Shown piece after piece: positions 3,117-58,267 of a stretch of DNA of 64,000 bases. Both the position numbers and the translations under genes were made by a program. The stretch spans positions 62,001 through 126,000 of the forward strand of contig NW_024882763.1 of the NCBI RefSeq assembly GCF_019059575.1, in the 5' to 3' direction. Under the pieces are notes generated by a model. It saw only the letters and a program-made list of their open reading frames with translations. It was not told the origin of the DNA and did not search any database. Position 1 is the stretch's first letter, and each line of letters begins with the position of its first letter. Source of the DNA: Amphibalanus amphitrite (lineage: Eukaryota > Arthropoda > Thecostraca > Balanomorpha > Balanidae).

Positions 3117-6100
3117 ATGATGGCAACAAGTGAAGATGCTTGTTCGGATGATTTGAATTTTGTTCCTGCTGGTGAAAGTGGGACAATATCAGGCACAGAA
3201 CCTGAACCTGCAAGTAAGGTTGAGGTGAGGTTGAGATGCAATTTTTAGCTTAGTCAAGAGGTAGGTAACATGCAACCACTTGCGAACCATTTCATCTTGA
3301 AGATACCGTCTATATTATTTACCTTTGTAATACTTGAGTAAGGACTCACATTTTAACACAAAACAAACTCACCAAGATAATAGCTGATGCAAAAATGATG
3401 GCTGAAATGGGTCAATAGAAATTTCACATCAAACTTCCCACATACACACACATAGGCGTCGCCAGAGATTTTCGGTTGGGGGGGGCAAAATCAACTTTTG
3501 TGTTAAATCTTGCCTTCCTCCAGTCGTTACTCATTCATTTTACATATCATTCAACGCGCAATGGTGCGAGGAATACGATGGTGACAAGGTTTTCCTTGTA
3601 GCTATGACTTGCCATTTTTTACAGAAAATTTAATTTTTTAAATTTTTGAACAAAAAACGACCGGTAGAATCACAATGGCTGCGCTTGCCGACACACTCTG
3701 GAGAGCCCCTGTGCAGACGCTCGTCGCTCATGATCATAAAAAGGTTAAACGCTCAGCTTAAGCGAATCACCTTGCTGAAACTTTCATTCACGCATGCATG
3801 CAGAGGTTCTACGTAAAATGCATAGGGCTTACCTATCCCAGCCGCCGATTGAAGCTAAGTAGGGCTTTCAGCGGAGAGTGAATGTCGGAAGTGTGAATCG
3901 GAAGTAATTCATCTTTGCTCCAGTGAGAGGAGGTGTAGTGTGAACAAAAAGTTTCTCGTTTTTCGTGTGTAGGGAAGCGCTGCAAACGCGAAGAAAAGAC
4001 GTTTAACGGAACCAAAATTTCGCACGGCATAGCGGCAAGGGATCCTTTAGCGATAGGCTTGAGACTTCCAGGCCATTTTAGGCCACTCAGGGTCAGTGTG
4101 GGCTCTCAGAAGCCTGCTTAGGATCCTGAAAATCGGCGCTGGTCACCCCAAATAGTTACGTGTACATATGTGGTGCTTTAGGGCTTTCCGAGCCCAAGGT
4201 GGGACCCTCAGAAGCCAGTGTGGGCGGCGCCGGCGGCGGGCGCTAAGAGACCAGGCCCAGGGTGAGCAGGGAGCCCTCAAATAGCAGTGTGAACCCTGGA
4301 GGTCTGTGTCGAATCCCTAAGGACCCTACATAGGGACATAAGAAACATGTGCTGGGACCCTCAGAGGCACACCCGAGTCGTGCCCCCTAAACTGCAGGCT
4401 TAGGCTCAGCAAAATCTGTCGCCTCAAAAGCTCGGCTGAGCTATCAGAGGCCTAAGATTCTCAGAAATATTTGAAAGTATCCTCAAAGATCCGTGTGGCC
4501 CTTCAGAGGTCTACGCATGTGTAAGGTCCTCAAAGATTCCTGTATGGGCCCTCAGAGAATATGAACACCAGTGGGACTCTCAGAGGCCGGTTTGGGCCCT
4601 CTGAAGGCTTCTTAGAGCTCAGTGGAGCTCCTTCGGAGCCTGTGTGAAAAGCAAGCAGTCATGAGCCCTGTGGCACTTGAACGGTACTTGAGGCTGTCGC
4701 AGACATTTGACGAGAGTTGAGAAAGGCCCGAAGATTCAGTGTCACGCTTTGAACGCAAATTTTGTATCAGCACTTCAAAACTTATGAAAATCAGCTATAA
4801 AATGTAATAAAAAACCAACGAGGAACATGAAATGAATCACAGTATTGACACTTCCGAGTCTGGAGTCGGTGTTTTGACGATGTTGGCGACTGCGACTCCG
4901 ACTCTGGCTTGAACGAGTCTGACCTCACAGGCATTCTCAGAAAGGTACCCCCATTTTTTCCCGACTCCAAAATCTCATCGGATCTGTATCGATCTCAGGG
5001 GGTGCCCGGTCCGAGGTTGGGGGGGGGGGGGCAAGCTGCCCCGCTTGCCCCCCCCCGTGGCGACGCTAATGTTAACACACATACTGTGAAAACAGCATCT
5101 ATATTTTTGCACCATTCAGATTTCAGACCTAACTTTCTAGGAAGTGGACTTAGGAGCAAAATTGAACATATCTGATCATTTCAATATGCTCTTATGCAAT
5201 CTCTGAGAAGGTTTGCTGTAGGTAGTAAATCAGTGATGATCTGAAGCTTAAGCTGCTCTGAAAAATCTTTTAATCCTTTTGTGTCATTGCGTCTGACATT
5301 TTTGCTTTTTTCCAGAACTCATCTTGTGTGCTATGTGGAACCACTATACCTGTATCAGACCAGGATGGATGTGAACCTGGAAGAGTGGACATATTTGGAA
5401 GGTTATCACCTGCCTATGACATCATTGTTATTAATAAGGTAGGTAGGGAGGCTACCTAGTAATTCTGTTCTTTTTTAATGTCGACAACTTGAACCACTTC
5501 ATGACATAGGTACCCTAAACTTAATTAAGTATTCTAGCTCATAACAATAATATTTTTCCAGTGTCAACCCCAAAATTGCCATCCATTTCCCAAGACAGTA
5601 TGCATTCTGAGGTGGCTTTTCTGTTGCAGATGGCTGCTGTGACAGGCTGCAGTGCTGCAGACCTGCACAGCCGCGGTAATCACATCTGCACCAGCTGCCA
5701 CGACCGCCTCCTGAAGCTGCACTCCATGGAGATGACAGTGAGTGGGCTGAACTGAAAGAAGCTTTTCAGATGCTCAGATCCTCCTCAAAGAGACTGACTT
5801 GAGAAAGACTCGGGAAACTAAGAGGCCCAGAGACCATGTCCTGTTTGTCCTCCAGGTTGACTGGGGGAGGGTACTGCTCACACTTTCTGCCATCTCCTCC
5901 ATCCCTCAGGTGAGTGGGCGCTGCTCACTTTGTGTGCTGCATCCCTCCCCCGGGTGGACTAGGGTGGGCACTGCTGAGTGCTGACCCCTCTGCCCTCTCC
6001 ACTTCCCCAGGTGGACTCAGGGTGGGCGCTGCTGACCCCTCTGCCCTCTCCACTTCCCCAGGTGGACTCAGGGTGGGCGCTGCTGACCCCTCTGCCCTCT

Positions 6101-8252
6101 CCACTTCCCCAGGTGGACTCAGGGTGGGCGCTGCTGACCCCTGCCCTCTCTACTTCCCCAGGTGGACTCAGGGCGGGCGCTGCTGACCCCTGCCCTCTCC
6201 ACTTCCCCAGGTGGACCGGAAGCGGGCCGGAGGGGGCGCTGCTGACCCCTCGGCCCCCTCGGTCCCCCAGTTTGACCGGGAGCGGGCGCTACTGACAGCT
6301 GCCCTCCGTCCTCAGGTGGACCGGGAGCGGGCACCGCTGACCCCTCTGCCCTCCGTCCCCAGTTTGACCGGGAGCGGGCACTGCTGACCCCTCGGCCCCC
6401 TCCGTCCTCAGGTGGACCGGGAGCGGGCGCTGCTGACCGCTCTGCCCTCCGTCCCCAGTTTGACCGGGAGCGGGCGCTGCTGATCTCTCTGCCCTCTCCC
6501 TATCTCAGGACGTGGACCGGGAGCGGGCGCTGCTGACCGCTCTGCCCTCCGTCCCCAGTTTGACCGGGAGCGGGCGCTGCTGACCCCTCGGCCCCCTCCG
6601 TCCTCAGGTGGACCGGGAGCGGGCGCTGCTCTCTGAGCTGTACCGCCGCCGGTGCGCGCCCGCCACTGACCGGCCGGCTCCGCAGTCCGGCGCCAGTCTG
6701 CTGCTCGTGGACGACATGGAGGTGCGGCTGCAGGACGACCAGGTGACGGCCGTGCCGCTCACCACCACCCGGCGCCGGCAGCTGCTGCGGCAGGCGCGCA
6801 GCGCAGAGCGCCGCTTCGAGTGCAAGGTGGGTCGCCGGGGAGGGGGTGGGAGGGAATCAGCGAGGGAATGAGGGAGGAGTGGGACTGGAGGATGTGGCAA
6901 AGATGATCACAGTGGTAGGAGGAAGGTATAGGCGAGCATGAGGGATCTGCGCCCTATTCAGCGTTTTATCGAGCGACCGTAAGGCGTTTCGCCAGCCGCG
7001 TTCAAGTCCTTGAACTCATAATTCAGATAAAGTTATATGTGGACGTGGCTGCAATGTATCCAGCATCCACGCACCGTATACCCGTCTACTCCTGATCCCG
7101 TGGCCGGCCGGTGTGGCCCGCTGACGGTGGCCGAGCAGGAGACGTTAGCGTCGGCTCAGGACCCGTAGCCGCGGGGCTCAACGGTTACCGGAGACATTCG
7201 TCCCTTCCCTCCCCCCCCCCCATTCGTCTCCGCGTGCCATCTCGGTTCCTGGATCACGTACTGTAGACTGAACTCCATTTTCCACTGCATGTGTATCAAA
7301 CTTCTTCAAGGAAATTTCGCCTCCAGCACTGTGCACCGTATTAGCTGCGGTACATCCACCCGCCTCCTACCAACTCCGCACTGGTTTTCGATATTTTCCT
7401 CGCTCCATTCCGCTCTCGTTTGCTCTTGGTATTCGGTCCAACTTAAGCATCCTTGCCAACGTTTTCCACCTTTTCATACGACGGACGCAATTATTTTATT
7501 TTCACGGCAAATAACTCCACGCCTGTCCTCTGTAGGTATGTGGGAAACGTTTCCGAGCCTTCAGTCACCGCGTGGAACACATGCTCATCCACGTGAACGA
7601 GACGCCCTGGGCGTGCGAGTTGTGTCCGAAGACCTTCCGCACCAAGTCGGCGCGCACGGCTCACCAGCGGGTGCACGCGCCGGCCGCCGCCCGTTTCAGC
7701 TGCTCCGTCTGCGATCGACAGCTCTCCGACGCGGCGTCGCTGCGCGCACACGCACGTACCCACGAGCAGGACAAGCCGTACACGTGTGACACGTGCCAGC
7801 ACAAGTTCGCGCGCCGCAAGGACTACGCCGTGCACGTGCGCCAGCACACGGGCGAGCGGCCGCACGCGTGTCCCGACTGCCCGCAGACGTTCGTGGCTCG
7901 CTCGCGGCTGAACCGACACCTGCTGCTGCACCGGGAGAAGCAGTTCGCCTGCGCGTGCGGCCGCGCGTTCCGGCGCCGGTACGAGCTGCAGAAGCACGCG
8001 CAGAGCTGCGGTCAGCCGGGTACAGGTGGGGAGGCGGCGCCGGCTGACCCGGCCCCTGTGACCCAGCCGGACGGCCAGCCGGCGGCGCTCACCTACCTGC
8101 CGGTGGTGCTGCGCGAGCCGCCGGCCGTCTACTACCAGGTGGTGACGCCGGTGACAGTGGAGGGCGCAGACGGGGCCGGACAGACCCCGGCGCACCAGGC
8201 CGTCCCGCAGGGTCAGGAGCAGGCGATCCAGCTGCCGGTGGTGACGTACTGA
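3117..8252 (+). CDS. ZAD-type C2H2 zinc-finger protein, five exons
   Basis: Exons proposed from splice sites, all in phase 0: 3117-3224, 5316-5438, 5630-5737, 6608-6826, 7536-8252; about 424 residues. Exons 2 and 3 encode CVLC and CTSC separated by about 53 residues with the pattern RVDIFGR...TGC..ADL...ICTSC, which fits a ZAD dimerisation domain. A C2H2 finger is split by the last intron (FECK / VCGKRF). Four more canonical fingers follow, one TGERPH linker, and a sixth finger that is atypical (CAC...H...C). The tail after the fingers is rich in Pro, Ala and Gln. Such proteins are usually nuclear DNA-binding regulators; the target is unknown. An alternative exon 3 start at 5562, joined to a donor at 5442, also keeps frame but makes the ZAD too long. 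Exon 1 is the least certain part. The exon 4 acceptor is preceded by a tandem array of near-copies of itself. Confidence 0.85.
3454..5074. mobile_element. non-autonomous DNA transposon in zinc-finger intron 1
   Basis: The ends carry GGCGTCGCCA (left) and its inverse TGGCGACGC (right), each followed inward by a G/C run. Both sides are flanked by ACACACAT (3446-3453 and 5075-5082), read as an 8-bp target duplication. The right end extends a few bases beyond the symmetrical part, so the exact boundary is uncertain. No transposase reading frame is visible inside. Confidence 0.55.
4060..4660. repeat. degenerate minisatellite around CCCTCAGAGGCC
   Basis: Motifs such as GGGCCCTCAGA, GGACCCTCAGAG and GGTCCTCAAAGA recur every 30-60 bp through this stretch of intron 1, inside the proposed element at 3454-5074. 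Units are too diverged to count exactly. Confidence 0.6.
5852..6607 (+). repeat. minisatellite made of copies of the exon 4 3' splice site
   Basis: Units of 45-60 bp, mostly 47-51, start at 6011, 6062, 6113, 6162, 6211, 6271, 6316, 6363, 6412, 6459, 6512 and 6559, and then at the true exon 4 start, 6608. More degenerate units reach back to about 5852. Nearly every unit is a pyrimidine tract plus CAG, followed by GTGGACC or TTTGACC and GGGAGCGGGCGCTGCTGACC, which is the start of exon 4 (VDRERALL). In the proximal half GTG and TTT units alternate, giving a dimer of about 96 bp. Confidence 0.9.
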
Positions 8253-10896: not shown

Positions 10897-11572
10897 CTGT
10901 GGGGAGACGCGCTGGTAAGGTCAGGTCATCTACCCTGGGTGAGGTCGGGCGGAGCGATGTGAGGTCAGACGAAGGTGACTGTTTGATAGCAGGGTGGAAG
11001 GCCTAGATGAATGTTTGTGGACACGAATAGCACAGGATGATCCTGTGTGGCCACCTACCGATAGCCAGCATGTGAATGATTGACATGCCTTTTAAAAGGA
11101 ACCAAGTACTTTTGGGTGCCTGCTGGATTCAAGCATACTACTGTTTTCTTTCGATTCATGGTTGATTGTTTGCATGCAAATTTTTATTCAATCCCAGAGA
11201 GGAAGTGCCCAGCTCGATAAATGACCGACTGATGACAGACTGAAAACCAGACTGAAAACGACGATGTTTCAATCTGAAGCGCTTCAGCTTCTTTAGTCTC
11301 GTGCACTGACTCATTTTCTGAGCTTCGCATCTTGCTTCGTATCATGCACGATTGCGACTTTTGGACGTTTCGGTAGAAAGATAAAGGTAATATTTAAATA
11401 TAGCATGCATAATAGCTCATCATTTACCGCATTTTAATGTTGTGCAGATAAGGTACGAATGTAATTTATGCAGGCTTGGATTCTGCTTCACTCTGTAAAC
11501 TTGCCTTGATATACGGGTGAAATGACGTGGGTACAAAGTTGACGGCAGTTATTAAACGGCGCATGTCCCAAA
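10897..11572. other. spacer between divergent GPCR and CCDC61-like genes
   Basis: About 680 bp between two genes facing away from each other; it presumably holds both promoters. No clear TATA, initiator or repeat was recognised. Confidence 0.4.
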
Positions 11573-13674: not shown

Positions 13675-13935
13675 CAGTGAGCTGGGGAGGATCTACTCTT
13701 CATTGGTGTCAGAGGTGGAAGTTCATTGCAACGTGAGGAGCCGCCAGCGCTCAGCAAGATTACGGCAGAGTCTAATTTTGGTTAGCTGAACTTCGTATTT
13801 TAACGGCTCATTGACCGTACTACAGCGGGTATGTATATTGAAGCACCAGATTGCGAGTGCTGGTAGCTGATCAATGATCCTATGCTATTTTTACGAACTA
13901 TTTTCGTATAATTGTTGATCATGTTCTGAGCTCAC

Positions 13936-13941
13936 AATAAA
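13936..13941 (+). terminator. poly(A) signal AATAAA for the CCDC61-like gene
   Basis: AATAAA 262 bp after the stop codon at 13674, in an AT-rich stretch. It is the first perfect signal found. Confidence 0.6.
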
Positions 13942-18716: not shown

Positions 18717-18787
18717 TTGTATTCCAGGGCCTATTTTAAGACAATTGGACTGGGGTGGCCAGGCAGTGGTGGCGCCCCTGTCTCTTG

Positions 18788-18856
18788 TGTGGGCGCCTCC
18801 CCCCCCCCCCCACCGAAATACTGCTGTGCGCAGCATTTCGATGGGGGGGGGGGCGT
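18788..18856. repeat. long hairpin with C-run and G-run arms
   Basis: A run of 14 C, ACCGAAATACTGCT, a short loop, AGCATTTCGATG, then a run of 11-12 G form a near-perfect inverted repeat inside the left part of the hAT element. Confidence 0.75.
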
Positions 18857-22062: not shown

Positions 22063-22070
22063 TCGAATTA

Positions 22071-27606: not shown

Positions 27607-27608
27607 TA

Positions 27609-37319: not shown

Positions 37320-37320
37320 T

Positions 37321-40300: not shown

Positions 40301-40572
40301 GTATTAAAATGCGACGTCGGCTCGACACTCCTTCTGTTCCACAAAAAGTGCGATGAAGTGATGGCGGATAATCCCTCGAATCTGGTGTCATTCTGTGTAG
40401 AATTGAACGCTGTATCGAATGCTTGTCTAGAATCGACATTTTATCGTGCACGCCAATAAAAATTGATAAAAGCTTGGTATGGCCAGCAGTGCTCATGGTT
40501 CTCCAAATGACAAGTAGGAAAAATAAAATCTGCGACGAGTTATCATTCGCATTCCTCGAATGGCCGGTATCA
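37321..40572. repeat. 806-bp dimeric satellite, right arm
   Basis: Near-identical units start with GGCATGCATATTTCCCGG at 38251, 39057 and 39864 (period 806-807 bp). A more diverged unit starts near 37440. Each unit is two related monomers of about 400 bp: one with TTGTTGCACAAATAGTGCGG, the other with CTGTTCCACAAAAAGTGCG. Both share a GTGTAGAATTGA, a TCTAGAATC.ACATTT and a TCTGCGACGAGAT block in the same order. More diverged monomers continue at 41490-42950. Confidence 0.88.
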
Positions 40573-40576
40573 TTAA

Positions 40577-41481
40577 CCCTCGCTCGCACATGCCATTTTC
40601 CCATCCTAGAACGCACATTGGGGGGGGGGGGTTGCCAACCCCGCGCCATTTCGTTCCTGTTGGAGATAGAGCTTAGCGGTAAAGACCAAAAAGATTCTTT
40701 GGGAAGAGACGAATCCAATGATACCCAGTTTTACCTTCTCAGGTCAGTCATTGACCTTCCAGGTCAGGTCAAACTATAAAATGTTGCTGTTTTGGGTCAC
40801 CATTGGATATCAAGTGCGCTGCTTATCAAATACCGATGACGATGCTGTTTTCTGGTGCCAAGCCAGCTAGAACCTCTTTGTCACACTACCCGACCAGAAT
40901 TTTGCTGCTGAGGTCATTTCAGGTCAAGTTAGGTCAAGGTCAATTATATGTGTTTGTATGTCTGTGTGTGTCTGTGTGTATACTGATGTGTGCACCGATT
41001 GTTTTTGGGTCCATATTACATGAAATCATGATCTGAGAAGCTTTTTCCAAAAATGCAGTCAAAAAACTTCACAAAAAGTAAATTCAGCTTGCCTAAAACG
41101 CAATTATCTTAGATGACCTAGGTTGACCTTGACCCTGACCTTGACCCCTGTACATCGTCGAACAACATGTTTCATGATAGGTGGGAGGTAAGACTGGCAA
41201 AAAAGGCCGAAATCAGGGTGTCAAAAGCTCACAAGGCCCATGGCAAACGCAAGATATTGAGAATTGGCCATTTGGGTCATGACATGACCTGAAAAACAAG
41301 GTCATATCTCCGAAACCAAAAATCACAGAAACTTGAAATTTTCAGTGGACATCAAGAAAGGATAGACGAGCAGCTTTACGAAAAATCAGCCTTCTAGCTC
41401 TAAAAATGTTGAGTGCAGAGCAGAAAGACTACCTGGGGCGGGGGGGTGGCAACCACCCCCCCCCCCATGTGCGGGCGAGGG
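40577..41481. mobile_element. TTAA-flanked AGGTCA-rich element, short subfamily
   Basis: TTAA at 40573-40576 and 41482-41485. Ends CCCTCGCTCGCACATG and, inverted, CCCTCGCCCGCACATG, then a G run and GGTTGCC/GGTGGTTGCC. Length 905 bp. Many GGTCA sites (40740-40770, 40910-40945, 41105-41150). Interrupts the satellite monomers. Confidence 0.8.
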
Positions 41482-41485
41482 TTAA

Positions 41486-42950
41486 AAAGCCCGTACAATG
41501 TATTCCCGGACCGGAGACGATTATCGAACCAACGTATTATTCCTTTGTTTATTGGCAACAAACAATCGAGTAGCATACATCGTTCGTGGCGGGGTCCCAC
41601 TCCTCTCGCGAAACGATGAAACATCCTTCTATTTCACAAATAGTGCTGTGAAGTGATAGCAGAATTATCCTTTTCAGCAGTGCCATATTGTGTAGAATTG
41701 ATTGCTTTATCAAACAGCTATCTAGAATCTGCACATAATTTTGCGCATCAATATGAAAACTTGGTGCGAACCTCGAAGGTATTGGTTGTTGGGCGAGCAA
41801 TGCCGAATAGGTAAGCCGGGAAATATTAACGAGTAAGGAAATTGAAAGCTGCGACGAGATGTTACTTTAATTCTTCAAATAATTAGCAGCATTGAATATT
41901 CCGTTGAATTTAGAACCCAACATGATTCTAGATTGAATTCACCATTGCCTTGCTTGTTGGCAAAAACAATAAATATGCACACATCGCACGCCGCCCTGGA
42001 CGCACCCATTGCATTAAAATGCAACGTCGGCTCGACACTCCTTCTGTTCCACATGAAAAAGTGCGGTGAAGTGATGGCGGATAATCCCTCGAATTTGGTG
42101 TCATTCTGTGTAGAATTGAACGTTGTATCGAATGCTTGTCTAGAATCGACATTTTATCGTGCATGCCAATACAAATTGATAAAAGCTTATGTATGGCCAG
42201 CAGTGCTCCATGGGCCTCCAAATAAAGACAAGTAGGAAAAATAAAATCTGCGACGAGATATCATTCTCATTCCTCAAATACCCGGTATCATTAGAAAGCC
42301 CGTAAAAAGTGTTCCCGGACAATATTCTGGAACCAACGTATTATTCCTTTGTTTATTGGCAACAATCAATTAGCATGCATCGTTCGCGGCGGCGTCCCGC
42401 TCCCATCGCAAATATATGCAATATCCTTTTGTTCCACTAATAGTGCGGCGAAGGGATTGCAGATTTATCCTTTTCAATAGTGCCATATTGTGTAGAATTG
42501 AGCACTTTATTGAAAAGCCATCTAGAATCGACATTTCATTGTACGTATCAACATGAAAACTTGATGCAAACTCGAAGGTTAATGTCAGACGAGCAATGCC
42601 GACCTAACCTGGGAAATATTAACGAGTAAGCAAATTGAAATCCGCGACGAGATGTTATTTTAATTCTTCGAATAATTAGTAGCATTGAATAGCCCGTTAA
42701 ATTTAGTACCAAATGTCATTCTAGATTCAATTTATTATTGCCTCGCTTGTTGGCAAAAGCAATAAATCTGTACATATCGCACGCCGCCCTGCTACGCTCC
42801 CATTGCGTTAGTATGCAACGTCGCCTCGACATTCTTTCTGTTCCACAAAAAGTGCGATGAAGTGATGGCAGATAATCTCTTAAATTTAGTGTCATTCTGT
42901 GTAGAATTAAACGCTGTATCGAATGCTAATCTAGAATCATATGTCATTGG
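41486..42950. repeat. diverged 400-bp satellite monomers
   Basis: Continuation of the right-arm array with the same blocks (TTATTGGCAACAAACAATCGA, GTGTAGAATTGA, TCTGCGACGAGAT) but lower identity than at 38.2-40.5 kb, as expected at the edge of a homogenised array. Confidence 0.8.
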
Positions 42951-43053
42951 TGTCCGTCTATGCAAAGTTCCACTGCAAACTTGAATTTTCGCCTCGGAGC
43001 GGTCGCCCACGGGCCGAGTGTCACGTGATCCCAATCTCAGGAGCCGGTCAAGG

Positions 43054-44095
43054 TGGTTCTGCGACACCTGAGCGAGCGTCATTTCAGCGAACGACATTTG
43101 AGCGAAGCCTTTTCAGCGATTATCAATTTAAGCGATTGACTTTTTCAGCGATTGTCAAGTCGGCGAATTCATCCACAGCGATTATCAACTTAAGCGAGGA
43201 CCAGAATTAGCGAAACCAGATTGAGCGAATATATGGAGGTCAATGGGGGACCTATTGAGCGAACACAGTTACAGCGAAACCGAACGCGACGGAAGTCAAT
43301 CACTTGCTACTTTTCGGAAATTCTTGCCCTTGGAATACCCGCTTGGTATGTGTCATGCTTCAAGCTGCGCGCGGCAAATTTAAAATTTGCTTTTAAGCTT
43401 GGAAACCACAAAAATATCTGGCCTCATTCTGCAACCTTGATCTTGCCTTGATCTGGCAATGTGGAACGTGAGAGATAGGACGATGGAAGGAATGCCAAGG
43501 ACCAATAATAAACTCGAGGGATGGCACAGGAGGATCTAGTCTATGTTTCAGGGACCTCACCCAAATATCTGGAAATTCGTACGTTGCTTGGGGCAAGAAC
43601 AAATTTTACAGCACGGGAAACTGATCCAAATTCAAGCGGGGGAATTTCGCGAAAATCAGCACAAGCAATATGAATCTCTGAACAAACGTTTGGTCATCAT
43701 TATTGGCAAACAGCAGGGGGGGGGGGGTTGAAATCGAACCGCTGGAATTTTTTTAGAAATGTGGCATTAAATTTGGAGCTTAATGTCTGAACATTGAACG
43801 TGACATCCGCCATCCAGTTCCGGATAATCATGAAAAGTTCCGGAAACATTCGTTGTACGTACACTCGCAAAAAAAAAAATACACCGTTAGGGACGATGAA
43901 GTGTTTCGCTGAAACGACAGTCGCTCAAACTGTAGTCGACGAAAAAGATGTCGCTGAAACATAGCTTTCGCTTAAATTGATAATCGCTATAATTGCTAAT
44001 CGCTCAATTTGATATTCGCTAAGTTGCCAGTCGCTGAAAATGGTTCGCTCAAATGACGCTCGCTCAAATGACACTCGCTAAAGTCGCTCGCACCG
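43054..44095. mobile_element. element with opposed AGCGA motif arrays
   Basis: Exact 8-bp duplication GGTCAAGG at 43046-43053 and 44096-44103; the empty site is visible at 33.65 kb (inverse reads GCCGGTCAAGGTCACATG). Inverted ends share GCGAC...AGCGAG.GTCATTT.AGCGA. About 13 AGCGA motifs lie in the left 250 bp and about 14 inverse motifs (TCGCT) in the right 200 bp, usually in the contexts TTCAGCGA, TTTAAGCGA or TTGAGCGA. A 500-bp centre has no recognised coding region; its 62-codon open frame (43543-43731) ends in a G run. The 8-bp duplication allows hAT, P or Merlin, but the ends match none that I know. Confidence 0.8.
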
Positions 44096-44195
44096 GGTCA
44101 AGGTCACATGACCAGAGATCGGTCAGTAGTTCTCAGATTTACCGCTAGAGTAGCGCCACTTGTATCGATGTCCGCCCTTGGACCGTAACGCTATT

Positions 44196-45136: not shown

Positions 45137-48100
45137 TTACAGGGGCTTGGGCACGTTCTTTGTGAAATCACCGATGAAGTTGCCAGCCGGATCTGAAACG
45201 ATAGGAAAGGGTCACTTTAATATTTGTCTCGACGTTGGCAGCGATTGCATTTATAAATGATTGAAGCATTCAGTCAGTTGTAAGATAATTGAACTAAATA
45301 GCATGTTTGATACAAGAAGCGCTGTAATTACCGTAGTTGGCGACCACCATGATCTTGCCGCTCTTGGAGCGGGCTTTGCCGACCCCCAGCTCCTTGGACT
45401 CCTTCCAGACTACCTGAGAGAAGTGGCCTGAAAACAACAACATTGAGCGCAGTCGGTTATCGGGCGGGCCATCATTAAGATGATCATGCCTATACAGTAT
45501 ATACTTCAACACAGTGTCTTTGTCATATCGAAGAGAGTTAACTACAGCTTGTCTGCATACCGTCCACGTCTTTCATATAAACTATTTTGCTTCACGTCTA
45601 CATACTGCATTTATATTAATTTTGTTCTGTTGACACCGGATCGTTTCACTCGACTCCCTGCGGCCACTCACCCGACTTCATGACTCCCGCCTTCGGCTCG
45701 ACGTCGAACTTGTGATCCTTAATCTCGCTGTACCAGCTCTCGACGGCCTCGCGGCCGTTCACCTTGAACTTGGGGTCGTCGCTCCACACGCAGAAGATGT
45801 TCTCGCCGTACTTTTTGTCCTGCCGGTGCTCCATCTTGTCCTTCTCGGCGATTGTGTCGGCCCACTGCTGGCTGTACTTGCACATCTGGGGACACGGCCG
45901 ATCACAATGCGTGAATACTGTGGAATGTGCTGCACCTTTAGAAGGCTATCCCGTTAAGCGCGGCAAAAGAAGAACAGCAATTAGTTAAGTGGAAAAAGTT
46001 AACTAGTATTCCAATAGGGTTTCTGAATATTGGGCACATTTATTTCTGAACCCGCCAGAGCCAGCTGATTTCCAGGCAACTGTAAGAAGTCTTCACGCAA
46101 GCACTTCTTTTCAAATCAAACCGAGCTCGTGGCCGCCGTCGGTCACATTGCGTCGCGTGTTAGCAAAATAACAAAAAAAAATAATGTTGCTGCTTTAATG
46201 CATCCGTGTTAACATGCCACGGTGGGAGCCATACCTTTTTGTTCAGCTTCAGCGACGGGACCCCGTGCTTCTTCCGGTACTCGTTGTGCGCCTTCAGGCA
46301 TTCCTCGGCAAAGTCCTCTTCGTCGCTGCTGCTGCTGCTACTGCTGCTGCTGCTTCGGCGCTTGCTCTTGCTCTTCTTCTTTTCTACCCGCGGGGCGTCA
46401 CGTTTAGGCTTGAAGCCAGCCGGGAATCCGCTGCGATGGAAGAGAAAATCAGTTGATTATAAACTCACCAGCGATTTAGTATAGACTGCGGCATCGATAC
46501 CTCTTTTCACCGCAAGAGGATGACTGGTTTGATCTAGTAATAAACCGCGCTCACAATCAACATATTCTCCCATCCACGTTTAACCAACGTTTCATATTTT
46601 GACCCAGGCCGGCACTCCTCCCTATCGAGAGTTCTGTGCCACGTCCCCAAGTCGAGCTCTGCACCCACGGGCGGTACACTGTCGCAGTGTTCTCCCCAGA
46701 AACCCCTCTCACCCACGGGCGGTACCCTGTCGCAGGGTTCTCCCCAGAAACCCCTCTCACCCGACGGGCGGCACGTTGTCGCAGTAGTCGCCCAGGAAGT
46801 TTCCGGCGGGACTGTAGTTGGCCACCACGTAGACCCGGCCCGACTTGGAGCGCGCCCTGCCTACGCCGACCTGGCGGGTGCTCAGCCACACCACCTGAGA
46901 GAAGTGGCCTGTCGACAGAGCGGACAACGATCGAGCTTCAGAGCAGGTCACATGGGTCGCGCGCCTTGTGTGAGTTAACTTCGTTGAAAGCACCTTTCTT
47001 CGAAAACAAAGAGCCAGAGCTGACCTCCCAGTGACGATATTGAACGACCGGCGCTTGATATTATTTTGCATATGGTGCATCAGTACATAGAAACTGCCCA
47101 AGCTGTTTTTTTTTTCTGACTATACGGCTAATATGTGGCTATTGTATAGACTGCAACAGGAAGACCAAGGCGATATTCTTCAAGCTTACGGGGTATAATT
47201 TTGTTATAAGTGCAGGATAATCCTATAGGATTCTTGTTAGGCAGATATTAACATGCGCAAGAAAGAACAGACACCATTACGTGAAGTGATATTTCATGCT
47301 CGGCATGCAGGCAACCGGTCACCAATAGAATATACTCATAAGCTACCATAATGCAATTCATGTGATATGCTTATTTCGGCAAATAAGGATTGTGAATCAT
47401 CCAAGTAATTTACGATTATCTTTTAACTCAATGAAAAGTCAACAATGGAATGTGAACGCAGAGCGGCCACATTGCAATCGAATGCCTGCAAAGTTGACAG
47501 TGGATTCAGCCGTAAATGTGCCTCACCGCTCTTGAGCACTCCAGGAGAGGGCTCCTTGGAGAAGTCATGGTCCTTGATTTCGGCATACCACGAGTCGACT
47601 GCCTCGCTGCCCTTCACCTTGTGTTTGGGGTTGCTGGACCACTGCGCGGGGCACACAGCGGTGGGTTAGAGCGCGGCAACGGACCGTTAGAGGTGGCACA
47701 CAGAGGGCGCTACTGCAGTCGAGTTAGGGCACCAGTCGGTGGGAATATACCGAGTGAGTGGATCAAACGGCGAGGATCGAGGAGCACAGAGGGAAAGTGT
47801 TACTGGTGAGCTGCTTGGAAACTGGCCAGTCTCAAGACACTGGATGTAATGAACCGAGGGGAAAGGAATAGTGACAACCGTTTAGACGGTTAATGTGCAA
47901 GATCAGCGGATGAATAGGAATGATAGTGACTATCCTCCAATTAATTTTTATAGCGATTATTGTTTTCGACCAGTCAAGTTGTCAGCGATCGGAGAAAAAC
48001 TAGTTTAGGTGGGCGTTGGCTGGTAGAAGCGGATGTCATTTATGTTTACCCTGACTAGAATGCTGAGAAGGTAAGAGCGACTGGTGATTTATGAATCGAC

Positions 48101-51100
48101 GAACCGATGGAAAAGGAAAACATTGGTCCTAGTCCAAGATTAGCGTGGAAGGTGTTAGCATGTCACAGGACCACTTTCTAGGGTTGGTTTGGAACGCCCT
48201 TGCCCCTTGGCCATTCGTATGAGTATAGGTATATATGTTAGGACACACGAAAAAAAATCACACTTTAGAACGTTAATTCCACTGGTTAGAGGGTGGTTAG
48301 AGTGAATTGGCGGGTCGTTGGATTGGGGAACCTTTTTCCCTACCTTGCAGTAGATGTTTTCGCCTTCCGAGTTGTCCTTCCGGTGCGACATTTTGTCGTC
48401 ATTTGCTATCTGCTTGGCCCACTCCTTTGCCATCTTCGTGAGCTGGAAGAGGGACAATAAATTAGTATCCTGTAATTCAAATGAAAGCATGGTGAATTCT
48501 CTACTACATGTGAAAATATTAGTATTCTAAGAAATGTGAAGCTTACCAGCATGAGTTCGAATCTTTTACCCGTTATGATATTTAATATTCAATTGGAGGA
48601 CCATCGGTATCCAGCTAATCCCCATGCACTGGGTGAGTGGAAAGATGTTTGACACCCCACGACTTGCGGCACCCGCACCTTTTTGCTGCGCTCGAGCGGC
48701 GGCGCGCCGTGCTTCTTGCGGTAGTCGTTGTGGGCGTTGATGCAGTCCTGCTCGAAGCTGTCCTCGTCATCACTGGAACTGTTACTGCTGCTGCTGCGGT
48801 GGCGGCTCTTCGATTTGGACTGAAACGACAGAAAAGAGAGGTTAAAATAGATCACTTTAGGGTTTGCATTGCCTGGAAAGTGCGGTGCTCAGGCCTTTCA
48901 CACTAAAAATGAGCCACCTGGGTCGAACGGGAAGTACCCTGCTGCTTTTGCGCCATCAGCGTAGGAAAAAAAATGGTAGCCCAGTATGTTATTTTAGAAC
49001 CGTAAAATCGGAGACACCAGCTGACAGAGACAGCTCCCCGAGTTGAGGTAGCCGCCACAGATGCCTGACTATGTACCGCCTGAATGCCTTCTGAGCGACT
49101 AGGTACTTTTCGATCTGAGGTCACCCGCACGGGCATCGGCGTCTGTTCGGAGGACCTGGACTTTTCAGCGCAGGTAATTACCGTTGACTGTCTTTCGAAT
49201 TTCAGGGGAAATGGGACGTGAAAAGACCAGAATGACTGCGTAGAGGTGTAGCAAGAACTGCCGCTCATCTGCACGGCCTAATGTGACGGCCCAAAAATCT
49301 AATACGCTTGCTAAGGGTCTTCGGTGATGTTCCATTAGAGCCTGCCCGTATTGATTGTTTTCAGGTGAATAACGCATTCATATAGATTGTCATTTATCAT
49401 CATTTATCATTTATCATAGCTTGATTTATCATCAACATTGTATACGTTTATTGCAAGTTTATTAGGACTTCATCTGATGTCGTGAAGAATAGATTTCGGT
49501 AAAAACGTCTCGTCTGCATTTTTTTAACATGCTCGCTGTTTTTATTTTATTTTGCGCTGGTGCAGTGGTGCAGTGGTCGTTACATCTCATTGCAACAGTG
49601 CGTCACCATTCGGAGAGGTACACAGACGACCAGAAGTGGATAAAGTGGCTTGTCTGAATATATCCTTCCTGTGCCGTAGCATTATCTGCGACATATGCGG
49701 CTCAGCATGGGATGAAGACAATGGTCGTTTTAACCCGTTTGAAAATAATCCCAGTGTTGTGTAAACACATTTCCGAAGTTTTAGGCTCTTATTGTTATAC
49801 AAACAGTTGATCAGTTATGCTCAAAAAGCAAAGCGATGTTTTCGAAACAAGTTGCAGTTGAGTCATGGCATCCGTCAAACTCAGTAGTCGGACCACAAGT
49901 CGTCATCGGCGGCCTCCTCCTCGAGCCACTGTTGGATCCAGGTGCTGTCCGCCGGCCTCCTGATCTCCGCGCCGGGTCGGCCGGACGTCTGCTGCGACTG
50001 GACTCGGCTGGGCTCGGTATTATTGGCCGCCTTCTGTCCCCTGCCTGCCGACGAGCTACGGACCGTCCCCAGAGTGGGATTCGAACGGCGCTGGCGAGGC
50101 TGCGAGCGTGAAAACGGCTGTGTGATGATATTCTCTGGATTCAAGAGTCTCTCGATCAAAGTCATATTGTCACGCTTCTTGAGATATATATGCCCGGGCG
50201 GCCTTGGTTTGCTTTGTAGCTTATGAGTTGGTTCCCTTGAATGCTTTGCACCTCCGCTGATTCTTGTGTGGGCGTAACTTGTTGGGGAGTTGGAGGTTTC
50301 TTGCGGATCGGCAATGTTTCGCCTTATCTTTTGTTTTAGTTTAAGGGTGCGATTTTCTTCTAACAAACTTTTGATGAATACACGCTGGTCTTCGATTGTT
50401 CGCTCCAAATGTACGATGTATTCCTCGATTTGTTCCACGATTTCCTCAGTACCGATTTGTGTCACCGACTTTCTCCTTTTTAACCCTATTGGTTTGGGCC
50501 TTTTCGGCCATTTTTCTACGCTTTTAACATGAGGTTTAGCCGGGCGCTCTATTGAAAGGCTGCGCAGCATTTATCATAGCATTTAGCAGAGTAGTTTTTA
50601 AGATGACCATGAATAGTAAGACAGTACAATCATGGTACTCACGGGTCCACTTTCATCATTCATGCTGGTTGACTTCATGCTGTAAACTTTATTTCATTCT
50701 TCGCGCTTTCTCTGTGGGTGGTTTCTTTGCTTCATTATTTAGCTGCCTCTGGACGTCACATTTTTGGTGTGGATATTTGAACAAAACGCTGATAAGAAAT
50801 AAAGGAAAGATTTTAAAAGGGAAGAGCCTAAATAAAGTTGTGTTAGTATAGAGTTTTTTTTTGTTGGTGCTACAATTTAGATACCTATAATTAAGACTTT
50901 TTGCATACCTATATAGGCATATAACGTTTTCTTCCTATGTTATTACCCAAAATTTCCGCGGCTCAAAGCAGGTAGTTCATTTTTAACGAAAAGGAACATT
51001 ATATTGCATGCATGTGCTTCTGTCTTTGCTGCACCACTCACGAAGAAGGCTTCAAAGCGGTAAAGTGTGGACAAGGGATAAGGCTCACTGCAAGTTGGAA

Positions 51101-54100
51101 GAGGCGAACTTTTAATTTCGCAACCAAAACAGATTTATTCCCTCTGCTTTACTACGTGTCTAGTGTCTACAGTGAAGTTGTATAGGTCTTGTAGTTAGGA
51201 TGGGTGACCTACCTCCTTGTCTTTCTTGGACTTCGACGCCTTGGGACTCGGGCTGCGCGACTTGGGTGTCTTATCCCTCTTAAACTTGGAGAGTAGTCCT
51301 CCCTTCTTCTTCTCAGGGCTGGAGCTGCGATTACGTCGACCGTGATGTTTGCCTCCATCGGACGATGACGAAGACGACCGGCGTCGGTTACCGTCTGCAG
51401 ATGTGAGACAAAAATATGTGACGGTGAGAGAGACGAATAAGATGCTATTGAATAAAGAAATGAAGACGCGAAGAATAGACTACACGAATTTCATAATTCA
51501 CATCCAGTTTTGCGTTTTCTTTTTAAATTTGGTGTCCAGTATCCATGCGTATTCGACTATTCACGCTACAAAACTGCATTTTACATTAAGCTTATTTACG
51601 AGGCGTTTTTTTCTGAATATCCGTCGAGAAAATGTCGTATTGGTGTGACAGTGAACCAACATTGTTTAAAGGGACCCTCCCACCTTAACATTAGTTTTGA
51701 GTTGAGATAGCCAAGTTTGCGGCCAGGCTCAGAAACCACCATTTATCCTGGTCGCAACCCCCGCAGCTTTATGGTGTTCAAGAAATTTCTTCCCTTTACT
51801 TGCAGGGTGGGACCAGCGTGGTCCCTATCTCTTAACCATTACGGGAATCTGATGACGTCATCAGGCTTTCGAACGTCCGTTAAATGTTTGACTAAAACAT
51901 TTTGTAGCGCGCGGTGGTATATGCTGCTTTGCGCGCAACAAATGCCGCACTTTCAAATAAAGTCGCTAGGAGCAGCGTAGATCCCAAAAAGTAAACAAAA
52001 GTAAAAGTATAATATCTTGAAAACCGGTGAATATTTTTCGATGAAATTTGGTAGATATTCGTTTTTGCTCTTTCTGAACTGAGCGACATCACTTTCATGC
52101 CAATTCATTAACTTTTTTGAAGGTGGGAGGGTCCCTTTAAGTCATGCAAAGTTTCTGGAGGAGGAGAAACATTAAATGTGCAAAAAGTCAGTGCACACGC
52201 AGTGTAGCACACACCGTGTAGCACACACAGTGTAGCTCAGTGGACACTATCTGACAATTCGAGCACCTGCTGATAGCAGCTTGTCACCGATTGGCCTCTA
52301 TCGCGCCCGGAGCTTCCGAGGGCTCATGACATTTCCGTTTATCCGTGTGCGAGCGATATGGCGTCTTTAATCGGTGTTTGTTCGGCATTTTACCCGGGAC
52401 CGTGGCAATCAGTACTCAGCCTGTCATATGCAGCATTAGCTCTCTTAATTAATGCTAACTGTTCCGTTACCCTAGCATTGACCAAGTCTTCCCTATCCGA
52501 CGATGACAATATTGGTCGAGTGTCTATCGCAGTTGTCATCTCGCTGTTTTTGTACGGATACAGGCTTACGAAATCGCGAGGTGCATCGTTAAGCCGGCAT
52601 CGTTTGACGTAGGCATTTTGATAGGCACATACCAGGTGTGAAAGTAACGTGCAATTGCTGCATCCCGGTGCATGGTAGCCTCGTACATCACGAGCCGAGT
52701 ATTACACGCTGTTTCGTCTCGCCAGAAAGCTCCTCGCCACCGCCGCGCCACCGTGCCCCGGCGACTCACGTTTGCTGTCCTCCAGCGCCTGGCGCGTCTC
52801 CTTGTGGAAGGTGTCCAGCCCGGGCCCCTTCTTCACCGTCTTGATGGTGGTCGTGCTCGAGCCGTCGTCCAGCGTCTCGATGGTCTCCGTCGTGATTATC
52901 TCAATCTCCGGGTGCTGAAACACGTCCATACATTAGTTTAAAGTTGAGCTTTGATAGAGGAAGAATTCTGGTAAATTGAGTGGTTTGATGGCATTTAATG
53001 CTCATTTGCCAGCGACTGTTGAGCTAGGGCACTTACAAGAGCGTATCTAAATCCCGTTTCAGACTTGCACGATGTATAAATCTACAGGTATTTTAGTTAC
53101 ATCATTTTCGTCTCGGTGTGCTATCGGCTATCTCTTAGAAAGACCGGCCGACGGTTCATCGTGATAGTGTCACACTGGGTGTCCCTTTTTTATTCCGTGC
53201 CAAACGAGTTACTTAACATAGTATATCTCAAGGGCCCTCTCAGATGCATGCCACTGATAATCTCTAAATCACAGATACATACAAGTTCCGTAGACTGTAC
53301 CTGCTTTGAGGCCGTAAGTGGTTGATAAATACCGATAGGGAACCAGACGCGAGTAAAAATACGGTATCTGCGGTGCAAGTGCTGTCTCGGTGCAATGGGA
53401 TTCAAAGGCTGAGCCAAACAGGCGGTCTCGGACGCTGCGGAGGGGGGGGGGGCAGACCCCCGAACAAATCGCCGACTTTGGAAAACTCGGATATCGATTC
53501 CTTTTGCACGGCTGTGCAGTTTAAAGCAAACTTTTTTATGAATAGTGTGTGGTCTTCTTTCCTTTCTAGAAAAACGACAAATTTTCATCGGTTTCGGCCG
53601 CTGCGAGGTGGGCGTTTGCCCCAAATGTTAGATCCGCCAGTGATGGGATTTAGTGACCTCAGTTATCAGTTACCACATCACTCGTTTGCTCCAGCCGCCT
53701 GTGAGGCCGCCTGTGTGACTGCGTGCTGTAAATACCGACCGATATTGGCCAATTGCTGGCCCTATAGGCATACTGCACCCGAAAGAGCCCTGGACCTTTC
53801 AGAAGCTGATACCCGAGTAGCACCTATCAAAGCTCGGTTCATATGACTCAATGCTTCGGTGTGCTATCGCCAAGGTCGGACTTTGTAAAGCCTTGTGTAT
53901 GTAAGGCAAGGCACGTCAACACGCAGGTTTACCTTCTCCGCGTCAGTATACATTGCTAACCTTGCGTTCAGTCGATAACGCAAATATGTAGGTGAGCTGG
54001 TGTCGCTACCACTTGCCGAAGGCTGCCGGAGTTTGCACAGCTAACCGATGCAGGCGCCGCGCTTTCAACGATATGCGTGAGCAGAGGATGTTAAATCTGC

Positions 54101-57100
54101 AGGTTCATTACTGGAATGTGTTTTTCGTCAGTTTATGCCTGTTCGGTTCCCAGGCCCATCTAACGGGCGTTGACACTTGAAGTGCAAATATTCGGCCGAA
54201 ACGCGTGTTAGTCAGACGTCTTACGGCTTATCGCTCCGACTATCTCGGTACGGGTACCGAGATATTCCTGCTAGCGAAGCCCAAGCCAGCAGCGCCGAGG
54301 GGCCGTGGTGCTGCACAGAGCTCACAGAGAGGTGGGTGTGGCCGAGGCAGAGCAGGGAGCGGCGGGTAGAGTGAAAGGGGAGGAGGCGGCGCTTTCTGAT
54401 CGCAAACTGGTGGGCGGGCCGCTGTCCCGTAAAACAAGCAGTGAATCCGGCTGGGGCATTGTTCGGTGTGTGCTGAACTGTACTGCACCGAGCAGTACAG
54501 TTCTCGACAACCACCATACCCGTTGGAGCTTTCAGCCTAACAACTACATACCTACTGCTTGACGAATGAACGGTCGGGAGTGAGCAGAGTTTGGGTGAGC
54601 TAGAGTGAGCTCAGGAAGGCTGATGTGAGTTGTGGGAGCTGGGGTAAAATGAGCTAATCAGAGTTAAACCGGCGGTGCTGAGGTTTCGGACGATTGACGG
54701 CTGCCTTTGGTGATTGTTGGTGAGGTCATGGGGCAGCGGTTGGTTACCCGCAGGTCAGCAGAGGTCACTGAGGTCAGGAGAGGTCGCCGGGGTCAGCGGG
54801 GTGAGGTGTCAGTCGGCTGTGGGTCGCTCTTGTGAGTGCTGAGCGCCGGTGAGGTGCGCGCTACAGCCGGGCTGAGGCGGGTCCAAGTGCGCAGAACTCC
54901 GCAGTCGTATGACCGCGCCAGGACTCAATTGAGGCAAGTGTGGAGCCGAGCGGCGACTGCCGACGGTTTCCCAAGGCAACAACTCTTCCATTCTCCTCCT
55001 CTATCCCTCACCCCCGTTCTCCACTCTCCAGTGACCCCAAATGTCAAACTACCGAAGCAGTGAGGTCGCTGTAATGATGTAAGTAGACGGTGGGACACAA
55101 CGCGTGGTCTTGCTGGATCATCAAACCCACCGCGTCGCTCAGTGGCGTCAGAGCTCTCAGAGACCACGGTAGCGTGCGCAGACGGCATGTGCAAACTGTG
55201 CATAGACGAGTACAGGCAGCCAGAGCGCCCCAGACAACACACAGCTCCTCCGTACCCAGACCTATATCAGCGAGCACGGCGGGGTAATGTGACCGGCTGG
55301 TGGTCGCAGCGTGCGCCTCGTTAACTCAATATCGCCCTGTATTTGACCGCGCTCGGTTAGAAGTTCACATATAGTGAGAGTTTGATGCGACATGATCGTG
55401 AGAAGACACGGATGTGAGCATGAACTTACGCTGCATGACTTTGAAGTCGGAGCTAACTGAAATACGATATAAGGTTATCACGCCGCCCGCAGCTGGATTT
55501 CCACGTTAGGGTCTACTTCGTAAATTTAAATTATGCATATTCATGCATATGAAAGCAAGTTTACAGACCAGTATAAATCCTCAGTGACCGAACAGAACTT
55601 CTTTAGTTTATGAAATGAAACTTCTCTATAACCTTAGGCGTAGACTTTTCCAGCTGCGTATCCGTTTCCTTGAAGCCGACTCGTCTCCACGCCAACTGAA
55701 CCGTGCTCAGTTGCAGGGTATGCAGGTCCTTCTGCTAAACACGTGCAGATGGCAATATACACAGAACCCAAGCACCCCGAAAACCTAGCCTCGTGACCGG
55801 GACTCTGGTCTCGGCGTGACGTGAGCGGGAGCTCTGCAAGAGCCGCTCCTGGAGCGCGGCGCAGATGGTCCGCCCACGCCCTCCCCTCCCCTCCCCTCCC
55901 GTCCCCTCCCCTCCCCTCGCCTCCATGACTTCCTCTCGTCCTGATGTGGTCCGAAATAGGTCGGCAAGGCGCTGTACGAACACACCAGCTAGTTGCACTG
56001 TCGACTGTCGTGTATGCGCGTCTGTCTGTGCGTTGACTGTGAGAAGTCACTGATCTGGCGTCACGGTGCACGGCCTTGTGCACCGGCTCACGGTGAGAGC
56101 CGCGCGTGCAGCGATCACTACAGCTGGCGGCCCGCGGCTCGCGTGATGATGAGCCGCGAGCACGGGATGGGCCGGCGTCCCGACCACCCGCCGTGTTTGG
56201 TAAACAGCGTCAACGTGCCTGTGAACCTGACAGGCGTGTGTGGCGTGTACGGTAACGGAACCTGATCGGCGGGAATACCTGGATGTATGTAGATGAGGTT
56301 TTTGCGGGTTATGGATTGAGGATAGTAACAGGTAATAGTGTGCGTTGTGTATCCCTCTGCTAAATGACCTGACTTGGTACGGAAAATATGTCAGCTCCGT
56401 GCACGGGTATGAATGCAGAACGATTCATAGGAAAGCTTGCTAAACCGGCGTTAACCCGCGAGTTGCTGGGGGGGGGCGTTAAACGCCCCCACTTTTTTCG
56501 CCGGGCCATAGCATAAAAACGGCGCGCCGCAGGCGCGCCAAATTTTGGGTACCTGTAGGGAATTGATTGAAGTTTATTGTGACAAAGTTTCAAAAACATC
56601 GGTCGGAAAATTTTTGAGATATCGAGGTTTTAGTGACGTCATGATTTCTGAGTTTTCGACCAAAAAAGGCATATGTTCAAAAAATCATATAAAATCACAG
56701 AATAGACATACAGACATGCCGTAAACGCCATTAGACTGCCAATACCATGATCAATCAAATGGCTATCTTCGATTATTGATTATCGTTCCGCATTTTCCAA
56801 AATCTTGAACTGAATCTTGGCAATTTTTCGTGACTTCTTCACGACCATGATACATGAATTTCTTAAATTGAACTTTTTGAGCCAAACACGTACACATATG
56901 ATAAAATGAATGTCACCATCGTGTTCTACGCCCCAAATTACCTATAAAACATGTGTCACAGGCTGCGAATATCAGTTTTGATTTTCGGGGATATGTGCTT
57001 ACCTGGTTGACCTGACCTTGACCCTGACCTATGCTTGACTGACCCCTATATGGAGCTGACACTCTTGTAGGCCTTATAAGATGGATTGTGCACCGTTTTG

Positions 57101-58267
57101 ACAGAGTTTATGGCGAGAGGCGCCCATTGCGAAGTCCTGAAGTCCATGCTCCTGAAAGGCCGATTTCAGGTATTTGACCTGACCTTGACCCGACCTGTGA
57201 CCTCAAAATTCAACTTTAAAGTACTCATCTGAAGCGTCTCGTCGCGCTCTTTCGTTTGCCGCCCCGTGCGTTTCGCTGCGCCTATTGGTTCTCGAGTTAT
57301 CGGCTGGGGGCGTTTAACGCCCCCCCCCCCAGCAAACGGTGGGTGGCGAAATACCCCAGCAACTGCCGGGTTAACTCGCCAGTCACATCATTGAACGGTC
57401 CAGGCGCCCGCAGGAACCCAACATGTTTCCTAGCGTAAACCATGCGCAAAACATTGCCCCGGAATGTTGTGCAACTGTGCATCCAGATTCAGTACATGAT
57501 ATTCATTTCATCTAAACAGTGACCTCAGTTTATCGTTTGCCAAACTACCAACGATAAGACCCACGATGGTGGTCCGCATTTGTCCAGATACCCCTAAAAC
57601 CTCGCTCGGCAACAGACCCTAAAACCGCGCAATTAACTTTCATCTGAATACGGCAAGGAAGCGTGCTATCTCAAGAGTCTCTCACGCTGTGTATATGCAC
57701 TCGTCGAGTGATTTAACTCTCACGGTCACGGGTCAGGATATAAACATGAACTCCCTGTCGGCTGTGTGGGAGTGTTTTGGAAGGCAGCACTCAAATCTGG
57801 GGCCCGTTCTGCGAGTGCTCTGTGTGTCCCGTTTGTGAGAGGCGCAGGACACAACACTGGAAGAGACACGGAACGACATTCTTCTCCTGTGGAAGATACG
57901 CGGGGCGGCACTCCCCGCTGGAGGGGACACGGAGTCGGGAGTGACACTTTGGGTCCCGTTTTAAGGGACGCGGGAAAGGACGATAGCACTCACTCACCGG
58001 TGGGTCCTGTTTGTGGAGTCAGGGCGCCACTCGCTCTGAAAGGGATACAGGTTGGCACTTGCCTCAGGAAGAGACAAGGGCGACACTCACTCACCTCTTT
58101 GCTCCGTTTGGACTTTGCCTTTGAAGGGACACGGGGCGGCACACCCGCCGTCTGGTGGAACCAGTGGCACTCACCTGGGGTCTTGTTTTGGCGGCCTAGG
58201 GAGCTACACTCACCTGGGGGTCCCGTTTGGTGGAGGTCTTCACCTCCTTCTTCACCACGGACGGCAT
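45137..58267 (-). CDS. double CAP-domain protein, GAPR-1/GLIPR2-like, 11 exons
   Basis: Minus-strand exons: 58267-58214, 52914-52770, 51394-51213, 48819-48679, 48442-48344, 47641-47527, 46908-46761, 46430-46235, 45885-45672, 45427-45332, 45192-45137. Phases agree at all ten joins and give 481 residues. Residues 1-150 are basic and Ser/Arg/Lys-rich (RSSSPEKKKGG, KSRSPSPKASKSKKDKE) after an acidic-Thr stretch. CAP domain 1 (about 150-294) has HNDYRKKHG, GENIYC, HFSQVVW and VVANYSPAGNF. A second basic poly-Ser linker precedes CAP domain 2 (about 336-481) with HNEYRKKHG, GENIFC, HFSQVVW and VVANYDPAGNF. No signal peptide, as in GAPR-1, which binds lipid at the Golgi; its role here is unknown. In domain 2 two exons of domain 1 are fused. 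The TGA after PPVG in exon 7 lies inside a GTGAGA donor, so I read on into exon 8. Two separate genes is the alternative. Confidence 0.88.
46657..46787 (-). repeat. three copies of the CAP exon 7 end and its 5' splice site
   Basis: On the minus strand, TGCGACA..GT.CCGCCCGT.GGGTG occurs three times, 48-49 bp apart (units near 46778, 46729 and 46681 and inward), joined by AGAGGGGTTTCTGGGGAGAA. The first copy is the real end of exon 7 plus donor. The second keeps GTGAGA; the third has GTGCAG. Confidence 0.88.
49881..50570 (-). CDS. unrecognised coiled-coil protein in CAP intron 3
   Basis: A 229-residue open frame on the same strand as the CAP gene, between its exons 3 and 4. Basic N-terminus, then a probable coiled coil (about 45-85: EEIVEQIEEYIVHLERTIED, then LLEENRTLKLKQK), a Ser/Arg/Gln-rich middle, and an acidic C-terminus (WLEEEAADDDLWSDY). 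Composition and length make chance unlikely, and no stop interrupts it. I do not recognise the family. It could be an intronless nested gene, a retrocopy, or an alternative terminal exon of the CAP gene. Confidence 0.6.
   Translation of the reverse strand: MLRSLSIERPAKPHVKSVEKWPKRPKPIGLKRRKSVTQIGTEEIVEQIEEYIVHLERTIEDQRVFIKSLLEENRTLKLKQKIRRNIADPQETSNSPTSYAHTRISGGAKHSREPTHKLQSKPRPPGHIYLKKRDNMTLIERLLNPENIITQPFSRSQPRQRRSNPTLGTVRSSSAGRGQKAANNTEPSRVQSQQTSGRPGAEIRRPADSTWIQQWLEEEAADDDLWSDY
51670..52136. mobile_element. TTAA-flanked MITE in CAP intron 2
   Basis: Inverted ends AGGGACCCTCCCACCTT at both sides, flanked by TTAA (51666-51669 and 52137-52140). Length 467 bp. The TTAA target with AGGGACC ends suggests Kolobok or piggyBac. 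Ends differ from the AGGTCA-rich family. Confidence 0.8.
53400..53645. repeat. dispersed repeat, copy 2 (related to 18103-18366)
   Basis: Shares ordered blocks with 18103-18366 (GCGGTCTCGGACG, GCAAACTTTT, TAGAAAAACGACAAA, GCTGCGAGG, GATCCGC). Contains a G run and lies in CAP intron 1. Confidence 0.55.
54590..54830. repeat. minisatellite of GTGAGC and AGGTCA motifs in CAP intron 1
   Basis: First TGAGCT/GTGAGC repeats (54590-54655), then AGGTCA-like motifs every 8-16 bp (54722-54800: GAGGTCATG, CAGGTCAGC, GAGGTCACT, GAGGTCAGG, GAGGTCGCC). Not bounded by recognisable transposon ends. Confidence 0.6.
54831..56450. other. CAP intron 1 interior
   Basis: No exon recognised. Short GC-rich open frames (for example near 55142-55324) lack domains. 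A CCCCTCC simple repeat lies at 55880-55922. Confidence 0.4.
56455..57370. mobile_element. TTAA-flanked AGGTCA-rich element in CAP intron 1
   Basis: TTAA at 56451-56454 and 57371-57374. Ends CCCGCGAGTTGCTGGGG and, inverted, CCCGGCAGTTGCTGGGG. An inner GGCGTTAAACGCC occurs on both sides and a GC hairpin (GGCGCGCC / GGCGCGCC) near 56518-56540. GGTTGACCTGACCTTGACC at about 57004 and CTGACCTTGACCCGACCTG at about 57178 are half-site clusters. Length 916 bp. Confidence 0.8.
57788..58235 (-). repeat. degenerate copies of the CAP exon 1 end and its 5' splice site
   Basis: On the minus strand, the last 15 bases of exon 1 plus donor (AAACGGGACCCCCAGGTGAG) recur in altered form at about 58168-58189, 58085-58109, 57988-58013, 57941-57961, 57811-57835 and 57788-57810. 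Three of them keep a GGTGAGTG donor. Spacers carry CCGTGTCCCTTCCA-like repeats. Confidence 0.75.

Follow-up and report, generated by a model that had tools for sequence, protein, structure and literature searches.

Tandem repeats that extend over exon-intron boundaries have been described in the Adh3 gene of amphioxus, where the units measure 10–72 bp and the arrays were named mirages (PMC3087553). According to the same source, the mirages of the amphioxus globin genes BflGb6 and BflGb9 are built of units of about 150–160 bp, both kinds of boundary are affected, the arrays are unstable in length, splicing is regular and mirages are proposed as a source of introns; another account lists TnC and PGBD5 as further amphioxus genes with such arrays (PMC3902484). 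Minisatellites at exon-intron boundaries are also reported from human segmental-duplication genes, with units of ~30 bp on average, some of which form novel introns (PMC2812944). In turn, the AGGT tandem-duplication model of intron origin has been reviewed together with a case from potato (PMC4974935).

In the window, i.e., the whole 64,000-nt stretch of DNA analysed, we found three arrays of comparable anatomy, one (array 1) at a predicted acceptor in gene A and two (arrays 2 and 3) at predicted donors in gene G. Like the amphioxus mirages, arrays 1–3 have a unit composed of both exon (22–26 nt) and intron sequence of the predicted junction, and AG or GT signals recur in many units, here at an acceptor and at donors. 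On these anatomical grounds the three arrays fit the definition of mirages, and what the initial annotation put forward as an undescribed phenomenon has the same anatomy as the arrays named so in amphioxus (PMC3087553, PMC3902484). Whereas regular splicing and length polymorphism are reported for the latter, the arrays presented here are known from the sequence of one haplotype. In the open-access literature searched, we found no report of an arthropod mirage. The combination of a weak zf-AD match with C2H2 fingers in gene A (see below) may hint at an arthropod rather than a lancelet as host. The arrays also resemble the human segmental-duplication genes in having minisatellite units at exon-intron boundaries, although the human cases, as outlined in PMC2812944, were found via paralog variation and transcripts, and those described here from sequence anatomy alone. 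Likewise, the potato RdRp, vertebrate ATP2A1 and fission yeast cases summarised in PMC4974935 involve a tandem AG/GT or parental intron-exon junction segment; the new introns in these reviewed cases were, however, established by phylogeny or transcripts, and no new intron is demonstrated for the arrays in our window.

Anatomy of the arrays in genes A and G

Gene models were built by hand, with splice sites supported by frame continuity, agreement with the consensus and similarity to known domains. Gene A (3117–8252, plus strand) is predicted to comprise five exons (3117–3224, 5316–5438, 5630–5737, 6608–6826 and 7536–8252) and 424 codons from ATG to stop, which encode C2H2 zinc fingers and a weak zf-AD match (Pfam E 0.006, below cut-off) spanning the array 1 junction. 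The predicted gene G (45137–58267, minus strand) has 11 exons and 481 codons, with Ser/Lys/Arg-rich linkers and two CAP (GAPR-1-like) domains (E 2.8e-45 in Pfam; GAPR-1 is the nearest relative of solved structure, with E 9.2e-30). With exon-proximal sites alone, the models remain open over 424 (gene A) and 481 codons (gene G). Rfam returned no matches at gathering score, and ARAGORN no tRNAs, in the window.

Several observations concern gene G itself. Its two CAP domains (45137–48819) have two intron positions in common and differ in two, intron 5 being found in the first domain only and intron 10 in the second only; each of these introns has therefore been gained or lost. Intron 3 contains an open frame of 229 codons (49884–50570, minus strand) for which no Pfam family was found at E 0.001. 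In intron 1, adjoining array 3, inverted ends rich in G/C runs were recognised by eye around a segment of ~950 bp (56440–57390), which may be a small mobile element.

Array 1 (5852–6630, plus strand) consists of 16 junction-like units at the acceptor of gene A intron 3, whose predicted authentic AG lies at 6606–6607, with 6608 as the first exon base according to the reading frame and gene model. The unit boundaries are located at 5855, 5909, 5953, 6010, 6061, 6112, 6161 and 6210 in the first half of the array and at 6270, 6315, 6362, 6411, 6458, 6508, 6558 and 6607 in the second, which gives a start-to-start spacing of 44–60 nt with a higher-order dimer; TRF reports the region 5979–6630 with a period of 49 and 13.1 copies. 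The exonic part of the array is confined to its final 23 nt (6608–6630). Nearly every unit carries the splice motif, the boundary AG being present in 15 of the 16 and missing from the unit at 5953. Pairwise identity among the units averages 0.67 (range 0.41–1.0). Over ~127 aligned columns, the segment 6504–6630 at the exon edge and its counterpart ~196 nt upstream (6311–6434) are separated by four substitutions and a single 3-nt indel, and unit 6411 matches the exon at 23/23 positions in its exon part. It follows from this near-identity that homogenisation of array 1 has been recent and extends to the edge of the exon.

The two arrays of gene G repeat donors. Array 2 (46657–46785, minus strand; TRF period 48, 2.6 copies) is composed of an exon end with the donor of intron 7 and two intronic copies, with boundaries 48 nt apart at 46761 (exonic), 46713 and 46665 (both intronic). 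All three units carry a GT donor, and the nearest intronic copy can be aligned with the exon end across 24 nt of exon and 10 nt at the start of the intron. The exon belongs to a CAP domain that is 61% identical to its sister (gap-free comparison) up to NVP, and since the exon side of the repeat is thus conserved protein, the exon copy was the source of the array. Array 3 (57788–58239, minus strand), at the donor of intron 1, is degenerate and was not called by TRF at a score of either 50 or 30. A 42-nt probe over the 58214 junction detects at least eight partial intronic copies, down to 57788; the copies listed sum to a score of 182, compared with an average of 20 and a peak of 77 for dinucleotide shuffles, none of the 300 shuffles scoring as high. 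When the probe was reduced to its exon part, its best match was equalled in 1% of 300 shuffles. The donor motif GGTGAGT is found at 58214, 58175, 58095 and 57998, and the repeat reaches about 22–26 nt into the exon.

The initial annotation had placed three arrays at one acceptor and two donors in two genes, which is borne out on gene models that are open from ATG to stop. It also had them starting exactly at the exon-intron borders, which is not what we observe, as each repeat straddles its border, the exonic side measuring 23 nt in array 1, 24 nt in array 2 and ~22–26 nt in array 3.

Splice-site choice and decoy copies

In each array only the exon-proximal site keeps the frame, and the other copies are thus intronic decoys. 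Among the 15 AG-bearing units of array 1, the downstream frame is kept by the exon-proximal acceptor alone; when entered in the phase of exon 3, the upstream AG-bearing units (14/14) lead to a stop after 23–94 codons and never join the exon frame. When the predicted authentic donors are read through, TGA follows immediately in array 2, where the exon ends at 46761, and TAG after five codons in array 3, where exon 1 ends at 58214. From these frames we infer that the exon-proximal sites are the ones used and that the remainder of each array is intronic.

Yet, splice-site strength does not single out the predicted sites. According to a small PWM built from the window, the real acceptor of array 1 is outscored by 11 of the 15 upstream ones, equalled by one and higher than three; the decoy donors of array 3 include one higher than the real donor, one equal and one lower, and both decoys of array 2 are below theirs. 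Because the real acceptor of array 1 is not the best and a decoy of array 3 exceeds the real donor, correct choice needs another cue, and our guess is that exon definition provides it.

The decoys retain splice-like scores and their use yields stop codons, as in regulated unproductive splicing, so that repeated acceptors and donors might be thought to tune site choice, intron retention or message decay. We regard such a role as highly unlikely, given that the boundary AG columns of array 1 (15/16 and 16/16) are no better kept than the exon-derived GGGC columns (16/16), and that amphioxus mirages, as reported in PMC3087553, leave regular splicing undisturbed. Functional conservation of the decoy AGs in array 1 was rejected for this lack of contrast with other columns.

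Tandem repeats and splice junctions within the window

Placement was assessed on a set of 33 junctions, 28 of which belong to genes A and G and five to genes B, C and F (F d1 and B a1 being doubtful), and on 34 rows of TRF output merged by hand into 21 arrays; the limits of array 3 were set by hand to 57800–58236. Two of the six TRF minisatellites of period 25–100 overlap a junction, with 0.58 expected (P 0.10 for independent placement and 0.12 for circular shift), and when all 21 merged TRF arrays are considered, two overlap junctions against 1.3 expected (P 0.39). Upon addition of the degenerate array, the count rises to three of seven versus 0.73 expected (P 0.024 and 0.034, post hoc), and all three arrays inside the multi-exon gene bodies A, C and G lie on junctions (P 0.032, also post hoc). 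These placement P values are post hoc because the arrays had been picked by the initial annotation, and for that reason we read the enrichment as suggestive only.

Repeat scores point in the same direction, as the three array junctions rank first to third among the 33 (454, 177 and 131). Outside the three arrays, these scores are reached by 0, 0 and 9 (0.32%) of 2770 positions, a control that omits array interiors as well as 2.8 kb at the start of the window and 0.8 kb at its end, an omission that favours the junctions. With array positions retained (3000 random positions, best single match), the corresponding fractions are 0.0017, 0.010 and 0.055. The remaining 30 junctions are ordinary in both position controls.

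Within the window, an enrichment of tandem repeats at splice junctions is thus borderline and not established. That a genome rich in minisatellites and introns has three of the former falling on junctions by chance, the repeats being unlinked to splice sites, is to our judgement only a little short of an even bet. The overlap counts for the six TRF minisatellites and for all 21 arrays agree with it, as does the observation that array 1 alone, when placed at random within multi-exon gene bodies, covers some junction in 46% of placements; the post hoc counts that include array 3 speak against it. The initial annotation reasoned that minisatellites should be expected to fall at random, an expectation that ignores coding constraint, which, by our reasoning, would alone make an array lying over a border end near that border.

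Other repeats of the window include a tandem satellite at 1–2679, with 286-bp units, 9.4 copies and 98% matches (TRF), which runs past the window start, and a degenerate AAAAGTCA-type tandem repeat of ~570 bp at 63325–63894 (TRF). On the minus strand of 37611–42260, similar ORF translations recur (e.g., 37611–38021, 40042–40440, 41878–42153 and part of 42795–43112) and probably represent a dispersed repeat.

Origin of the arrays and the question of intron gain

We consider it likely that each array is a minisatellite grown from a unit that by chance included a splice junction, as in the amphioxus mirages. A segment of ~45–60 nt over the border would have been duplicated in tandem towards the intron side, and the resulting array would then have expanded and become partly homogenised via slippage or unequal exchange. 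Such an array would be tolerated as long as splicing at the exon-proximal site continues to give an in-frame exon, and the decoy copies in the intron would drift; slippage or unequal exchange, with selection removing only those changes that break the exon-proximal site, would suffice. We infer both the mutational mechanism and the neutrality of the arrays from their anatomy. This origin needs no enrichment at junctions, so chance placement is compatible with it.

Minisatellites often show strong G or C runs on one strand, and so do the arrays described here. Their G/C-run asymmetry is high, with an absolute G4Hunter mean of 0.28–0.49, values reached by 0.4%, 3.1% and 3.8% of 2322–2401 windows of equal size; arrays 2 and 3 are unremarkable in GC content and skew (fractions 0.11–0.30). 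The arrays may also be mis-assembled.

The initial annotation raised the possibility of a genome that is making or remodelling introns by local duplication. Remodelling fits our data, since intron 3 of gene A and introns 1 and 7 of gene G have been lengthened by copies of their own junctions. The making of introns is a different matter. Duplicated AGGT junctions could provide new donors and acceptors, with units recruited as in the Rogers model or the mirage model of the amphioxus globins; this route is proposed for mirages in PMC3087553, and human paralogs in which boundary repeats form new introns are described in PMC2812944. Within array 1, we predict a candidate micro-exon of 54 nt (5856–5909, plus strand) that extends from the acceptor of the first unit (acceptor-like start, 7.0 bits) to a strong donor CAG/GTGAGT (10.1 bits) and is open over 18 codons, phase 0 to 0. 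Array 1 could supply this micro-exon to the spliced message, though chance might readily give such a frame: by our arithmetic, an open stretch of 18 codons is expected in ~0.4 of random cases, phase left aside. The decoy sites otherwise run into stops.

In the classical model of intron gain, copies of one segment are found at both intron ends. None of the three array introns has both ends in copies of one segment, as the opposite junctions are without significant copies (A d3, G a1 and G a7 with scores of 20, 16 and 14 and null fractions of 0.34, 0.84 and 0.99, respectively). For the donor of gene A intron 3 this score corresponds to a 10-nt match with array 1, and the donor was accordingly rejected as the first unit of the array. 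The two gene G introns that differ between the CAP domains (introns 5 and 10) are devoid of repeats: their junctions score 16, 22, 17 and 18 (null fractions 0.84, 0.23, 0.67 and 0.55; 3000 random positions), and in the position control G d5 (48) and G a5 (35) stay under the 90th percentile of 53, with G d10 and G a10 outside the ten best. Intron creation by these arrays is therefore not supported, and active creation of introns by this route seems to us quite improbable.

Retaining the origin from minisatellites that happened to include a junction, we see some broader implications. It is conceivable, though rather unlikely, that in a non-cephalochordate genome, possibly that of an arthropod, splice junctions are hot spots of minisatellites through which introns grow and sometimes spawn exons or introns, the micro-exon at 5856–5909 being a candidate product. 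The known range of mirages would widen if the host lineage is not a lancelet, and minisatellites that span boundaries could plausibly account for the growth of introns and, in published models, for intron gain. Should such arrays prove frequent in another animal lineage as well, the attraction of tandem duplication to junctions would become testable across genomes, and an acceptor repeated 16-fold with one in-frame site offers a natural test of splice-site selection.
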